Source: an uncultured Algibacter sp. (GTDB taxonomy: Bacteria > Bacteroidota > Bacteroidia > Flavobacteriales > Flavobacteriaceae). Taken from it: a stretch of 64,000 nt of DNA. How positions within the stretch are numbered: the first letter of the stretch is position 1; each line of letters opens with the position of its first letter. The notes below the pieces were generated by a model that saw only the letters and a list, made by a program, of their open reading frames with translations, was not told the DNA's origin and ran no database searches. Shown here one piece after another: positions 47,585-54,307 of the stretch. The position numbers and the translations under genes are program-made. The stretch covers positions 1 to 64,000 of the forward strand of contig NZ_CANKXK010000009.1 in NCBI RefSeq assembly GCF_947487605.1. The letters run 5' to 3'.

Positions 47585-48598
47585 TTAATCTAGTTTTACT
47601 CGTTCATCACGATTAGCCAGCTCCCAAGCGGTGTGAAAAATTAACCGCGCTCTAGTTTCTAAAAAGGCATAATTTATTTTATCTGGTGTGTCGCTTGGTC
47701 TATGATAATCATCATGCGTTCCATTAAAATAAAAGATAACAGGAATATTATTTTTTGCAAAGTTGTAATGGTCTGAACGATAATAGAAACGGTTTGGATC
47801 GTTATCGTCATTATAGGTATAATCGAACTCCATGTTAAAGTACTGTTTATTAACCGCCTCAGATACATTGTGCAATTCTTTACTTAATTTATCCGAACCT
47901 ATTAAATATAAATAATTGTCTTTGCCTTCATGTTTTGGGTCGATGCGACCAATCATATCTATATTAAGATTGGCAATTGTGTTTTTTAAAGGAAAAACAG
48001 GATCAACATCGGCGTAATATCTTGAGCCAAAAAGGCCGATTTCTTCACCAGTAACATGTAAGAATAAAATAGAACGTTTAGGGCCATTACCCTTGTTTTT
48101 TGCTTCTTTAAAAGCTTCAGCAATTTCAATCATGGCAACTGTTCCAGAGCCATCATCATCTGCACCATTATTAATATCTCCATTGCCTGAGATTCCTATA
48201 TGATCTAAGTGAGACGAAATAACAATAATTTCATCTAGTTTTTCAGAACCTTTTATGTAAGCCAAAACATTTTCAGAATCTTTAATATTGCTTTTGTTGA
48301 AGTATGAAGCTGGTATTTCTTGAAAATAGTCGTCTTTTCCTAAGGGCGAAGGTACGCCCATTTTAATGTATTGGGTCTTTATAAATTCAACTGCTTTTTT
48401 TTGCCCAGGCTCCCCAGTTTTTCTACCCTCAAATTCATTTGAAGCATAAGTAAAAAGCATTGTTTTTAGTTCGTCTGCGGTAATAGTCTTAGCAAATTCA
48501 GTAACACCTTCAACATTTTTTGAAGATTTATTGTTTTGTGAAGAACTGCATGATATTACTAGCAATGACGTGCATAATATTAAAGCTATTTTTTTCAT
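47585..48598 (-). CDS. M28 family zinc peptidase, lipoprotein (copy 1)
   Basis: A 337-residue metallopeptidase with a lipoprotein signal (MKKIALILCTSLLVISC). A linker follows, then the M28 catalytic domain: VISSHLDHIG, NNGADDDGSGTVAMIEIAEAF (bridging Asp), LHVTGEEIGLFGS (Glu-Glu), NIDMIGRID and DDYHRPSDTPDKI (final His). All zinc ligands appear intact. It is anchored facing the periplasm or outside and would cut N-terminal residues from peptides. A clear paralogue lies 125 nt upstream on the same strand. Confidence 0.92.
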   Translation of the reverse strand: MKKIALILCTSLLVISCSSSQNNKSSKNVEGVTEFAKTITADELKTMLFTYASNEFEGRKTGEPGQKKAVEFIKTQYIKMGVPSPLGKDDYFQEIPASYFNKSNIKDSENVLAYIKGSEKLDEIIVISSHLDHIGISGNGDINNGADDDGSGTVAMIEIAEAFKEAKNKGNGPKRSILFLHVTGEEIGLFGSRYYADVDPVFPLKNTIANLNIDMIGRIDPKHEGKDNYLYLIGSDKLSKELHNVSEAVNKQYFNMEFDYTYNDDNDPNRFYYRSDHYNFAKNNIPVIFYFNGTHDDYHRPSDTPDKINYAFLETRARLIFHTAWELANRDERVKLD

Positions 48599-48723: not shown

Positions 48724-49776
48724 CTATTTTAACAAAACATTTTCCTTATCTGTGGCTAACCTATTAGGCTGATTTGCTATTTGCCATGCAGTTGCAAAAA
48801 TAAGTCTAGCTCTTTTTTGTAATAGTGCGTAATTTATTTTGTCTGGTGTGTCTGTGCTTTTATGATAATCTTCGTGCTCTCCGTTAAAATAAAAAATAAC
48901 TGGAATACCATGTTTTGCAAAATTATAATGATCTGATCGTGAGTAATATTGATTTCTATCGCGCTCAGAATTATAACGATAATCTATATTAATATTATAG
49001 TAAGTATTATTTACTGTTTCCGAAATATAGTGTAGCTCCTTACTAAGCCTATTCGAGCCTATAAGATAAATATAGTTTTCATTGTTTTCATGAATTTGGT
49101 CAACGCGCCCAATCATGTCAATATTTAGGTTTGCAATGGTATTTTTAAGAGGAAAAACAGGATGTTGCGTGTAAAATTCCGATCCCATTTTTCCAATTTC
49201 TTCAGCTGTTAAATGAAGAAATAAGATGCTTCTTTTTGGACCATAACCGTCTCTTTTGGCTTGGTTAAACGCTTGAGCTATTTCCATGATGGCTACTGTG
49301 CCAGATCCATCATCATCTGCACCATGATTAACTTTTCCATCTTCGGTAATGCCTAAATGGTCTAAATGGGCAGAAATAATAATTACTTCTTCTGGCTTTT
49401 CGGAACCTTTAATGAATGCTAAAACATTCTCCGAAGCTTTTATATCTTTAAAGAAAAAAGATTTAGGGATAATCTGGTAATAATTTGAACCTTCATAAGG
49501 TGAGGCTATTTCCTCATTAATGTAATAATCCTTCAGAAAATTTGCAGCCAACTTTTGTCCTAGTTCACCAACTTCTCTCCCTTGAAATTCATCTGATGAA
49601 AATTTATACAGATGCTTGCTCAATTCTTTACTAGTTATAGTATTTGCATATTTTACAACCTTAGTACTATCTACAAGTTTAATACTGTTTTTAAGGTTTT
49701 CAATTTTTGTGGAGTACTTTTCTGTGGCGCATGTCCCTAATAGTGTAAAAACAGACAGAATACAAAAGGCTTTCAT
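48724..49776 (-). CDS. M28 family zinc peptidase, lipoprotein (copy 2)
   Basis: This 350-residue paralogue of the neighbour has the same motifs: IISAHLDHLGITEDGKVNHGADDDGSGTVAIMEIAQAF, LHLTAEEIGKMGS, NIDMIGRV and EDYHKSTDTPDKINYALL. The signal sequence MKAFCILSVFTLLGTC has a lipobox-like LGTC. The zinc ligands appear intact. The two copies probably arose by tandem duplication; the N-terminal 60 residues have diverged most, which may reflect different substrate access. Confidence 0.92.
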   Translation of the reverse strand: MKAFCILSVFTLLGTCATEKYSTKIENLKNSIKLVDSTKVVKYANTITSKELSKHLYKFSSDEFQGREVGELGQKLAANFLKDYYINEEIASPYEGSNYYQIIPKSFFFKDIKASENVLAFIKGSEKPEEVIIISAHLDHLGITEDGKVNHGADDDGSGTVAIMEIAQAFNQAKRDGYGPKRSILFLHLTAEEIGKMGSEFYTQHPVFPLKNTIANLNIDMIGRVDQIHENNENYIYLIGSNRLSKELHYISETVNNTYYNINIDYRYNSERDRNQYYSRSDHYNFAKHGIPVIFYFNGEHEDYHKSTDTPDKINYALLQKRARLIFATAWQIANQPNRLATDKENVLLK

Positions 49777-51140: not shown

Positions 51141-51169
51141 TTGTTTAGCTGATAATTATCATATTTTTG
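51141..51169 (+). promoter_or_regulatory. Promoter of the universal stress protein gene
   Basis: TTG (51141-51143), an 18-nt spacer and TATTTTTG (51162-51169) match the Bacteroidota consensus. The track start at 51167 lies inside the -7 box, which supports the later ATG at 51209. Confidence 0.6.
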
Positions 51170-51208
51170 ATAGTTGATGTACATTATATTTATAAAAAAT
51201 ACTACATC

Positions 51209-52051
51209 ATGAAATCGATATTACTGCCAACAGATTTTTCGAAGAACTCGGTTAATGCCATACACTATGCTATGAACCTTTTTAAAGATGTAGAATGCCA
51301 ATTTTATATTCTGAATGTACAAAAAGCATCATCATTTTTAACAGACGATATGATGGTAGTTTCTTCTTCGGCTACTTTATATAATACCATTGTTGATGCA
51401 GCTAAAAAATCTATAACAAACATCATTTCAAAAATAGAAAAGAAATATGCTAATATGAATCATGAGTTTCACTCACTGGTTGATTATGATAATTTTATTG
51501 ATTCCATAAATCAAGTTTCAGAGAAGTTTGAAATTGATTTAATAGTTATGGGAACCAAGGGAGCCGCTGGTTTAGAAAAAATGATTTTTGGAAGTAATAC
51601 GGTACGTGTAATGCAGCGTTGTAATAAGCCAGTTTTAGCTATACCTAATGGTTGTAAATATCATGCAATAGACTCTGTGGTATTTGCGACAACAAACTTA
51701 AAGCAATTTAAAGTTGAAGATTTTAAGCCGCTAATCTATATTTTAAACACTGGAAATTCACAACTAGATATCTTGCATTTGGCAGACCAGAATCATATAG
51801 CTTATGATGCTTTTGATAATATGACGTTTTTTAATACTCACTTTACTAATGCTAATCACGAATTTATTGATACAAATAGCAAGGATTTGTTTAATACGGT
51901 TCATAATTATTTAATTAATAATAACATTAAAATGCTCTCAATAGTCAATAAAAAACACTCCTTTTTAGAACGATTGTTCAATAAACACGATGTTGAAACA
52001 TTTGGATTTAAAATTGATATTCCACTTTTAGTTATGCAAAGTTATAACTAG
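51209..52051 (+). CDS. Universal stress protein family (double UspA-like)
   Basis: A protein of 280 residues starting MKSILLPTDFSKNSVNAIHYAM, the classic UspA opening. VMGTKGAAGLEKMIFGSNTVRVMQRCNKPVLAIPNG completes the first domain with its ATP-type GxxG..G(S/T)NTxxVM motif. The second half is a degenerate UspA domain (CKYHAIDSVVFATTN...KIDIPLLVMQSY). Tandem USPs are common in Bacteroidota and respond to starvation or redox stress. It is convergent with the DsrE/cytochrome cassette and has its own promoter. Confidence 0.9.
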   Translation: MKSILLPTDFSKNSVNAIHYAMNLFKDVECQFYILNVQKASSFLTDDMMVVSSSATLYNTIVDAAKKSITNIISKIEKKYANMNHEFHSLVDYDNFIDSINQVSEKFEIDLIVMGTKGAAGLEKMIFGSNTVRVMQRCNKPVLAIPNGCKYHAIDSVVFATTNLKQFKVEDFKPLIYILNTGNSQLDILHLADQNHIAYDAFDNMTFFNTHFTNANHEFIDTNSKDLFNTVHNYLINNNIKMLSIVNKKHSFLERLFNKHDVETFGFKIDIPLLVMQSYN

Positions 52052-52093: not shown

Positions 52094-52138
52094 AAAAAGA
52101 ATAAGGTCTAGTAGGTATTAACTAGACTTTATTCTTTT
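52094..52138. terminator. Bidirectional terminator between the USP gene and DsrE
   Basis: AAAGAATAAGGTCTAGT pairs with ACTAGACTTTATTCTTT (one G-U pair), a 17-bp stem with A/T runs on both sides. It serves the two convergent genes. Confidence 0.82.
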
Positions 52139-52155: not shown

Positions 52156-52575
52156 CTACTGTCCTTCTTTTATATATCCCCAGCCTTCATTTTGTTTCGT
52201 TACAATTTCTAGAATGCCATCGGGTACGCTTCTTACACCTTCAATAATATCTGAAGCTTCTGCCTTATGACGTTTCATTGTGCCTTCGCAAATAACAAAA
52301 TCGACATTGTTTTTTTGAATAAGATTAGCAATGTCTTCTGCTACCACAGACTTTTCCTTTAATACCATTTCCATAGCGCCACTATACATAACAACTTCAA
52401 ATTGTGAATTTGGATATGCTGCCGACATTGCTTTTACATGCCTAACGGTAGACTTATGAACACTTGTATTATTACTAGTAACGTCAAATACTATTTTAAC
52501 AGGTTCTTCTTGCGAAAAAGTTATTGCTGTAATAAGGCTCGCTATTAATAATGTGAAAATTTTTTTCATAATCAT
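52156..52575 (-). CDS. Exported DsrE family protein
   Basis: This 139-residue protein has a signal peptide (MKKIFTLLIASLITAITFSQ). A DsrE/DsrF-like fold follows: VKIVFDVTSNNTSVHKSTVRHVKAM, FEVVMYSGAMEMVL, NNVDFVICEGTMKRHK. The single mature cysteine (ICEGTM) is in the position of the DsrE active Cys. Related proteins carry or relay sulfur. It is the third gene of a tight operon after a dihaem cytochrome and a Tat-exported protein, so a periplasmic sulfur or redox role is likely. Confidence 0.85.
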   Translation of the reverse strand: MIMKKIFTLLIASLITAITFSQEEPVKIVFDVTSNNTSVHKSTVRHVKAMSAAYPNSQFEVVMYSGAMEMVLKEKSVVAEDIANLIQKNNVDFVICEGTMKRHKAEASDIIEGVRSVPDGILEIVTKQNEGWGYIKEGQ

Positions 52576-52585
52576 AATTGTTTAG

Positions 52586-53263
52586 TTATTCGCCTGCAAA
52601 AATATACCCACAACCTTTTGCTTGTGCTTTTCCAAGAGCCCATACGCCAGATGGCACTAATTCAATATCTGAAATAATACCCGCTACCCAGTCTTTGTAA
52701 ATTTCTTCGGCGTTTCCACCGTTTTTTTCTGCATATTTTCCACTATACACTTGGAGGGCTAAATTACAAACGCAAAAGAGAGCACCTCTTCCTTGCATTT
52801 CTTTAATGCCTCCAGGGCCGTTAATAGGGTAATCGCCATCTTGTGGTTCGTGCCATGGATTTCTTAGCGCAAAATCTTTTGTGTGATCTTTTACTCCGAA
52901 AAATTCGCCTAATTTATATTTTGCCCAAGTTTCATCATTTAATGCTAAAGGAATAGCGGAATGACGTAAAACGGACATTGCTGTTATGTCGGTATCTGGT
53001 GAATCTGTTGAATTGTGAGATAAGTAAAATGCCCAATTCCAAAGAATAGGTAAACCTGCATGTGGTGTCGAGCCATCATATACTATACGATGTGTGCCTT
53101 TAATTTTGTCGAACCAATTTTCTGTAGCTTTCATTCCTTTAACGTCAAAAGCTTTTGTGCTTGCGTAAATTGGATTTGCTAGCACAGATATTGTACTTGC
53201 TGTAGCTCCTAGGGCTAGGGCTCCTAAAAATTGCCGTCTTGAATTACTGTCATTTGTTTTCAT
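52586..53263 (-). CDS. Tat-exported protein of unknown function
   Basis: A 225-residue protein with a twin-arginine signal (SRRQFLGALALGATASTISVLANP). The mature part has conserved-looking ILWNWAFYLSHNSTDSP, HSAIPLALND and AQAKGCGYIFAGE, and a CVCNLALQ pair. Tat export implies folding in the cytosol, often with a cofactor. I do not recognise the family. Spacing (3 nt from the cytochrome gene, 10 nt to DsrE) shows it belongs to their operon. It may be a partner of the TsdA-like cytochrome. Confidence 0.78.
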   Translation of the reverse strand: MKTNDSNSRRQFLGALALGATASTISVLANPIYASTKAFDVKGMKATENWFDKIKGTHRIVYDGSTPHAGLPILWNWAFYLSHNSTDSPDTDITAMSVLRHSAIPLALNDETWAKYKLGEFFGVKDHTKDFALRNPWHEPQDGDYPINGPGGIKEMQGRGALFCVCNLALQVYSGKYAEKNGGNAEEIYKDWVAGIISDIELVPSGVWALGKAQAKGCGYIFAGE

Positions 53264-53266
53264 AAT

Positions 53267-54307
53267 TTACTTGGTTTTAGTTATATTGTATTCTTGTTTA
53301 TAAAATGCCATTATTGGCTGAAATGGTCCTAATTTATGTTGTTCAATAGGGAAGTTATCTGCATAAGGTGGGTAAGGTGTAGAAACGGGTTTTTTCTTTA
53401 TATCTGGAAAGTCTTTTTCTGGGTTTGATTTTTGAGGGCGATCGTGCATATTAATAAACCCTGCAACATCATAGGCTTCTTCATCGGTTAAAACAGGAGC
53501 ATCATATGTAGCAAGTTCAAATGGCATGTTTCCTTTTATAAATTTTGCTGCAGTAATAACTCGCGTCATGCCAGCGCCATTATTAAATGAATCGTCTCCC
53601 CAAAGAGGTGGGTATTCATAACTATAACCATCAGCGTATAATGTGCCTTGTCCATCTATTCCATGGCAAGTAACACAATGTTGGGTAAACACTTTTTTGC
53701 CATTATCAAGGTTTACTGCTCTATTAGGTATTTTAAGTTTTAAAAATCCTTTGCCTTTTATTTCTCCATCTTCTGGTGCAAACCGGCTTAACCATTTTAA
53801 ATAAGCAACCATGCCTTTCATTTCTTTACTTTCAAGTGGTAATACGCGTCCATTCATACTACGTTCCATGCAGCCATTTATACGTTCTTCTATAGTGCCG
53901 ATTTTATTTTCGCGCCCTCTAAATTGTGGAAACCTTTGTATGATTCCTATTAGTGGCGCAGAATATGGTTGTGTTCCTAAACCTAAATGGCAATTTCTAC
54001 AAGCTAACCTGTTATTTTGATACACCATATCTGGGTTTCCATTGTCTGTCCCTATATATTTTGGTGTTTTTTGAAATAGTTCGAATCCATATTTTAGAAG
54101 TTCATTGTCTTTAGAGTCTGGTAATGTTGAAACATCATAATTCATATAATAAATATTAGAAATCTTGTTTTTGGATTTAAACAAATCTAAAGGGATAACA
54201 TCGAAACAACAGCACAGAGTTAAGAAAGCGATTACTAATATTGAACCAAAGTACATAAATACTAGTCTTCTAATTTTTTTGTAAAACGGTGGTACTTCTT
54301 TGTTCAT
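53267..54307 (-). CDS. Dihaem c-type cytochrome, thiosulfate dehydrogenase (TsdA)-like
   Basis: This 346-residue protein has one N-terminal membrane helix (FMYFGSILVIAFLTLCCCF) and two haem sites, CRNCH and CVTCH. QRFPQFRGRENKIGTIEERINGCMERSMNGRVLP and MKGMVAYLKWL match TsdA and related periplasmic dihaem cytochromes that join thiosulfate to tetrathionate or do the reverse. Maturation would need the CcsBA encoded at 34-37 kb. It is the first gene of a three-gene operon with a Tat protein and a DsrE protein. The sulfur substrate is inferred only. Confidence 0.88.
   Translation of the reverse strand: MNKEVPPFYKKIRRLVFMYFGSILVIAFLTLCCCFDVIPLDLFKSKNKISNIYYMNYDVSTLPDSKDNELLKYGFELFQKTPKYIGTDNGNPDMVYQNNRLACRNCHLGLGTQPYSAPLIGIIQRFPQFRGRENKIGTIEERINGCMERSMNGRVLPLESKEMKGMVAYLKWLSRFAPEDGEIKGKGFLKLKIPNRAVNLDNGKKVFTQHCVTCHGIDGQGTLYADGYSYEYPPLWGDDSFNNGAGMTRVITAAKFIKGNMPFELATYDAPVLTDEEAYDVAGFINMHDRPQKSNPEKDFPDIKKKPVSTPYPPYADNFPIEQHKLGPFQPIMAFYKQEYNITKTK

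Follow-up and report, generated by a model that had tools for sequence, protein, structure and literature searches.

Within the window, by which we mean the whole 64,000-nucleotide stretch of DNA that was analysed, the minus strand carries three successive genes for exported proteins, namely tsdA, a gene for a Tat-signal protein and, last, dsrE, and a terminator-like structure lies beyond the last of them:

53267-54307, minus strand: tsdA (gene 1), 346 aa, a membrane-anchored di-haem cytochrome c of the thiosulfate dehydrogenase / tetrathionate reductase family
52586-53263, minus strand: the middle gene (gene 2), 225 aa, a predicted Tat-exported DsrE-fold protein and distant relative of the NF052225 thiosulfate dehydrogenases
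52156-52575, minus strand: dsrE (gene 3), 139 aa, a Sec-exported DsrE/DsrF-like protein with its likely start at 52569
52095-52138, minus strand: a terminator-like hairpin with a T tract, 3' of dsrE, -17.9 kcal/mol, z = -5.7

The open reading frames of the window reproduce the tight arrangement of the original prediction, with intergenic gaps of 3 and 10 nt. Alignment showed that homologues of dsrE begin at the second methionine of the frame (MKK), and the true start may therefore be 52569, in which case the second gap becomes 16 nt. Because the hairpin follows dsrE and the gene upstream of tsdA, which has the same orientation and encodes a pyruvate:ferredoxin oxidoreductase (TIGR02176), is 213 nt distant, the trio looks like its own transcription unit. 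A sigma-70 scan of the locus scored close to shuffle level, so that we claim no promoter, and an Rfam scan of the locus returned no RNA element. Three different modes of export or anchoring had been predicted, and each was recovered: a membrane anchor on TsdA, an SRRxFLG Tat motif scoring above the TIGR01409 cut-off on the middle protein, and a Sec-type leader on DsrE. Around the trio, a universal stress protein gene (51167-52051, plus strand) converges on dsrE, and such genes recur near sulfur loci of this kind (also locus L103, 6593-7435, and locus L065, 1-391). Two similar exported peptidases are encoded in tandem at 47585-48598 and 48724-49776 on the minus strand, the second belonging to family M28 (Pfam); the pair looks like a duplication.

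Judged by its sequence, gene 1 is a genuine TsdA with predicted enzymatic activity. It combines a SoxA/TsdA domain with a cytochrome c domain (Pfam SoxA-TsdA_cyt-c, 3e-11; Cytochrom_C, 1e-13), carries two CxxCH haem motifs, and matches Allochromatium vinosum TsdA (AvTsdA) in the PDB with E = 6e-52. Residue roles were assigned by mapping the PDB alignment to AvTsdA onto the published haem-ligand and thiosulfate-binding residues (PMC6879331, PMC4423706) and by conservation across 21 homologues:

53987-54001, minus strand: haem 1 motif CRNCH, C103-H107, with H107 equivalent to AvTsdA His53 (sequence and alignments)
53870-53872, minus strand: Cys146, equivalent to AvTsdA Cys96, the haem-1 distal ligand and catalytic cysteine; invariant
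53663-53677, minus strand: haem 2 motif CVTCH, C211-H215, with H215 equivalent to AvTsdA His164 (sequence and alignments)
53525-53536, minus strand: haem 2 distal pocket K258-G-N260-M261, of Campylobacter type and not the A. vinosum Lys/Met switch (alignment)

The ligands of both haems (H107/C146 for haem 1, H215/M261 for haem 2) are invariant in the 21 homologues, as are R132, R142 and S150, which correspond to the published thiosulfate-binding Arg109, Arg119 and Ser127 (precursor numbering). Asn260 stands where A. vinosum has its switch residue Lys208, and Lys258 lies two residues earlier; the same pattern occurs in Campylobacter TsdA (K252/N254/M255), where the methionine is a ligand of haem 2 and direction is influenced by the environment (PMC5146829; see also PMC6879331). 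With a pocket of this type, the direction of the TsdA reaction is not readable from sequence. We weighed a reading in which the operon encodes a respiratory tetrathionate reductase system: TsdA would reduce tetrathionate to thiosulfate at low oxygen, and the role of the DsrE-fold proteins would be to bind the thiosulfate and sulfane so produced or to protect against them. In its favour, the K258-x-N260-M261 pocket is identical in type to that of Campylobacter jejuni TsdA, which is bifunctional and has been described as a tetrathionate reductase (PMC5146829, PMC6879331), and one distant genome (L117) has a gene for cytochrome bd oxidase next to the cassette. Against it, sequence does not reveal the direction of TsdA, the family homologous to the middle protein takes its name from thiosulfate oxidation, and the sulfide/persulfide oxidation cluster of this genome, described below, suggests that thiosulfate is made and consumed oxidatively. 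On balance we consider a reductase role unlikely. The N-terminus of gene 1 forms a membrane anchor, and some homologues have lipobox-like N-termini at this position. In Maribacter spongiicola (L020, 4948-5994) an apparent frameshift or sequencing error divides tsdA between two ORFs, with the other two genes intact.

At the other end of the trio, gene 3 combines a Sec-type leader with a DsrE domain recognized by Pfam (PF02635, 2.3e-6, 28.2 bits against a gathering cut-off of 22.7). Its profile found PDB entries 2pd2 (3e-15) and 1l1s (9e-14), and its AlphaFold model (pLDDT 94) matched 1l1s in Foldseek with a TM-score of 0.92 of target, YchN (1jx7) and DsrEFH (2hy5) also being matched at lower score. 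A single cysteine stands out in the alignment of 36 homologues:

52288-52290, minus strand: invariant Cys (C94, aligned numbering) that ends strand 3 in the DsrE model (36 homologues)

Separately, a Flavobacteriaceae metagenome-assembled genome (L040, 4208-5160) carries two tandem dsrE genes after the middle gene.

The original prediction had placed a sulfur-linked fold at each end of the trio and an unrecognised protein between them. That description needs revision: the middle protein itself has a predicted, divergent DsrE fold, and it is distantly homologous to NF052225, a family to which NCBI gives the name thiosulfate dehydrogenase. Its informative positions are as follows:

53234-53239, minus strand: R9-R10 of the SRRQFLG Tat motif (TIGR01409, 18.6 bits against a cut-off of 16.7; conservation)
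52766-52774, minus strand: C164-V-C166 at the end of strand 3; C166 is invariant, and the alignment pairs it with the invariant Cys of the NF052225 set
52610-52612, minus strand: C218, the third invariant Cys, just before the last strand (GCGYIF; alignment and model)

Among middle-protein homologues, R9 and R10 of the Tat motif SRRxFLG are nearly invariant and F12 is invariant. Pfam returned no domain beyond the Tat signal in the middle protein or its 43 homologues, and the Pfam DsrE models matched none of the 44 family members; matches to TM_PetC, YoeB and formate_TAT were dropped as leader or chance matches. Searches against the PDB with the single sequence and with the profile gave nothing credible, so that a fold search was required. 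An AlphaFold model built from the 44-sequence alignment placed 144 residues, most of the mature domain, at pLDDT >=90, and Foldseek assigned a probability of 1.00 to only three PDB entries, 1l1s, 2pd2 and the engineered 8uja, all of them DsrE-family structures, which gene 3 also matches in sequence and in fold. The modest E-values (~1e-3) and target TM-scores (0.66-0.68) indicate that the fold is a divergent one. The two predicted structures have a common strand order; in the middle protein a long stretch is inserted after strand 2 and before strand 3. In the AlphaFold models C166 ends strand 3 just as the gene 3 cysteine does. Compared as profiles, the middle family and gene 3 aligned over the last 31 columns only (prob 67), a similarity suggestive of relatedness that we do not use apart from the fold. 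On the strength of the structure model together with this C-terminal profile similarity, the middle protein is predicted to be a divergent DsrE-fold protein; two of the three exported proteins would then have a DsrE fold, each with an invariant cysteine ending strand 3 of its model. C164, C166 and C218 are invariant in the 44 middle-family sequences, and in a set reaching distant Bacteroidota C166, C218, R100, H101, W75, S205 and W208 remain invariant, with C164 present in 43/44.

A second line of evidence connects the middle protein to a family of thiosulfate dehydrogenases. The NCBIfam model NF052225 matched it with 23.6 bits (E 2.8e-5), far under the 300-bit cut-off, so that we treat it as a homologue and not a member and do not transfer the reaction. 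The same model weakly matched 43 of the 44 middle-family members (best 2e-7) and distant Bacteroidota proteins as well. For comparison we used aligned NF052225 members from Pseudomonadota plasmids, of which the Novosphingobium P6W protein scores 332.7 bits; hhalign of the middle family against this set gave prob 96.3 and E 1.5e-9 over 162 columns at ~25% identity and paired C166 with the sole invariant cysteine of the set. Behind the NF052225-type gene of Kozakia and of Gluconobacter come genes for a solute-binding protein and DoxD, the same order as tsd-sbp-doxD in Acidithiobacillus ferrooxidans (AFE_0042-0043-0044; PMC2754497); other plasmid NF052225 genes adjoin DsrE, TlpA and cytochromes c. 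From gene order, size and Tat signal we infer that NF052225 is the family of A. ferrooxidans Tsd (AFE_0042), a reported ~25 kDa thiosulfate dehydrogenase that reduces neither ubiquinone nor horse cytochrome c (PMC6335251). The plasmid proteins of this type (L061, L063-L069) go by the annotation 'transcriptional initiation protein Tat', a label that misleads and hides a family of exported putative thiosulfate dehydrogenases; their genes lie next to those for DoxD, DsbA/DsbD or cytochromes c. A 2019 review lists the structure and mechanism of the A. ferrooxidans-type enzyme as unresolved (PMC6335251), and the fold assignment suggests a hypothesis for it, namely a DsrE-fold protein using a strand-3 cysteine.

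This homology raises the question of whether the operon encodes two thiosulfate dehydrogenases, TsdA and, alongside it, the middle protein as an enzyme independent of cytochrome and assisted by DsrE as an accessory sulfur carrier, so that two routes would lead from thiosulfate to tetrathionate. The extent of the NF052225 alignment and the common strand-3 cysteine are consistent with such an enzyme, as are the acceptor properties of the A. ferrooxidans protein and the occurrence in some Algoriphagus of the middle gene without an adjoining tsdA. Against it, the middle protein scores far under the family cut-off, the NF052225 loci examined have a solute-binding protein and DoxD or cytochromes but no annotated tsdA, and it would be redundant for a single operon to encode two enzymes that catalyse the same reaction; we regard a parallel enzyme as a minority prospect, rather unlikely.

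The three-gene cluster occurs across many marine Bacteroidota, the closest named relative locus being that of Hyunsoonleella aestuarii (97% identity). The original prediction had proposed a synteny search as a check and had counted a lack of co-occurrence towards its refutation; the genes do co-occur elsewhere, so that this part of its own test left the prediction standing. Whole trios were adjacent at 29 of 35 loci with the middle gene in other genomes; the middle gene was accompanied by dsrE at two further loci and stood alone at four, all of the latter in Algoriphagus/Cyclobacteriaceae. A survey of 150 relatives found gene 2 in 11 genomes, tsdA in 18 and dsrE in 14, and the trio was adjacent in every genome with gene 2 (11/11); hypergeometric probabilities for co-occurrence of gene 2 with tsdA and with dsrE were 2e-12 and 2e-14, respectively, with phylogeny ignored. 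Five lone tsdA genes and two tsdA-dsrE pairs lacked the middle gene, which weighs against the reading favoured below. Distant families of the phylum present varied orders: gene 2 followed by tsdA (L114, L116), tsdA and gene 2 on opposite strands (L112), dsrE - gene 2 - tsdA and then the cytochrome bd oxidase gene (L117), and gene 2 without tsdA (L113, L115). Given the 29/35 adjacent loci, the 11/11 co-occurrence and an adjacency that is kept despite reshuffled order in distant families, the association of the three genes is more than chance. Within Flavobacteriaceae, the cassette-linked tsdA genes form their own clade and the lone tsdA genes a separate one, and the distance matrices of TsdA and the middle protein are correlated (r = 0.84), a value to which shared descent contributes.

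Six Algoriphagus/Cyclobacteriaceae loci (L021, L025, L043-L046) carry the middle gene without an adjoining tsdA, either with dsrE or alone. These and the other loci of this kind imply that the middle gene can act without a neighbouring tsdA, and they bear on whether the DsrE-fold pair belongs to thiosulfate turnover at all. The pair might instead provide a periplasmic defence against persulfide or polysulfide and be merely co-regulated with tsdA, a reading with which the middle gene-dsrE pairs at L021 and L044 would agree. DsrE-family proteins are sulfur carriers in several contexts, which fits a defence role as well. The tight adjacency to tsdA, rearranged repeatedly yet kept across families, and the correlated trees of TsdA and the middle protein argue against a separate function, and we judge it very unlikely.

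Sulfur genes accompany tsdA-dsrE elsewhere and are present in this genome at a distance from it. Two genomes from another family of the order place tsdA-dsrE, without gene 2, inside a sulfur cluster: that of L103 encodes two YeeE/YedE-type transporters, a Usp protein, rhodaneses and TauE (Pfam), and L104 is similar in order. In the genome under study, a separate sulfur cluster on contig C11, at about 97.5-106.3 kb (L124, 9499-18339), encodes an SQR-like flavoprotein, a DsrC-like protein, DsrE2, a cytochrome c, a Crp-type regulator, two YeeE/YedE-type transporters, TauE, and a metallo-beta-lactamase/rhodanese protein with the architecture of a persulfide dioxygenase. This predicted capacity for sulfide and persulfide oxidation makes thiosulfate a plausible internal product. 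A search of the genome for SoxY gave no match, and the control genomes gave no match either. Thiosulfate oxidation by marine Flavobacteria is cited in the literature (PMC12345210).

The assignment to a periplasmic sulfur pathway made in the original prediction is thus well supported by conservation of the TsdA active site, conserved synteny and the sulfur neighbours found elsewhere. The reading we favour, and hold to be the probable one with room for doubt, is that the operon encodes a module for thiosulfate and tetrathionate in the periplasm, with the DsrE-fold proteins handling sulfur on behalf of TsdA. TsdA, in the inner membrane, would interconvert thiosulfate and tetrathionate through the haem-1 cysteine and exchange electrons with the respiratory chain by way of haem 2. 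Both small exported proteins, the Tat protein and DsrE, would most likely bind or carry a sulfane or thiosulfonate group for TsdA via their strand-3 cysteines, a role ascribed to these invariant residues by analogy; transfer to TsdA may involve physical interaction between the proteins. The Tat protein may also oxidise thiosulfate itself, as reported for its distant Acidithiobacillus-type relatives. In a heterotrophic host, the physiological role of the module would probably be to oxidise thiosulfate left from the sulfide/persulfide oxidation encoded elsewhere in the genome.

In the papers searched we found no title or abstract that describes the trio, and no paper naming both TsdA and 'DsrE family protein'. 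The trio is real and conserved, a known enzyme with a set of partners, and its new part is the predicted DsrE-fold Tat protein with its link to a thiosulfate dehydrogenase family; as such it suggests that TsdA, a widespread sulfur enzyme, has a partner system that has gone undescribed. To our knowledge, the use of TsdA by heterotrophs is poorly known, and a conserved Bacteroidota partner set offers a concrete, testable unit with which to approach it.

Compared with AvTsdA and C. jejuni TsdA, gene 1 has the same di-haem build, His/Cys-ligated haem 1 and thiosulfate-binding Arg/Arg/Ser set, and like the C. jejuni enzyme it has a His/Met haem 2 of Campylobacter type, but it adds the N-terminal membrane anchor, a conserved ~45-residue C-terminal extension (PDFPDxKKKPVSTPYPPYAD-like) and two predicted DsrE-fold partners encoded downstream. 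DsrEFH (2hy5) and YchN (1jx7), which match gene 3 in fold, are cytoplasmic sulfur relay components, whereas the gene 3 product has a Sec leader and its gene is grouped with tsdA. MTH1491 (1l1s) and ST0148 (2pd2) have the fold predicted for both the middle protein and gene 3, and MTH1491 also has a cysteine at the end of strand 3; their deposited chains are ~110 aa without a leader, in contrast to the middle protein with its Tat leader and its insertion between strands 2 and 3. The NF052225 family resembles the middle protein in Tat signal, size, profile homology of the mature domain and strand-3 cysteine, and differs in its neighbours, which are a solute-binding protein and DoxD or cytochromes and not the tsdA that the middle gene adjoins. 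The Bacteroidota proteins have additional conserved Cys164 and Cys218, and Asn or Asp, not His, after the common cysteine. Tentatively, and with the balance against it, the two groups may represent branches of one haem-free exported DsrE-fold class that oxidises thiosulfate or carries thiosulfonate, one of NF052225/Acidithiobacillus type and the other a Bacteroidota branch dedicated to TsdA together with a second DsrE protein. If such a class exists, it would constitute a thiol-based periplasmic sulfur relay placed before a cytochrome, comparable to SoxYZ with SoxAX but built on an unrelated carrier.
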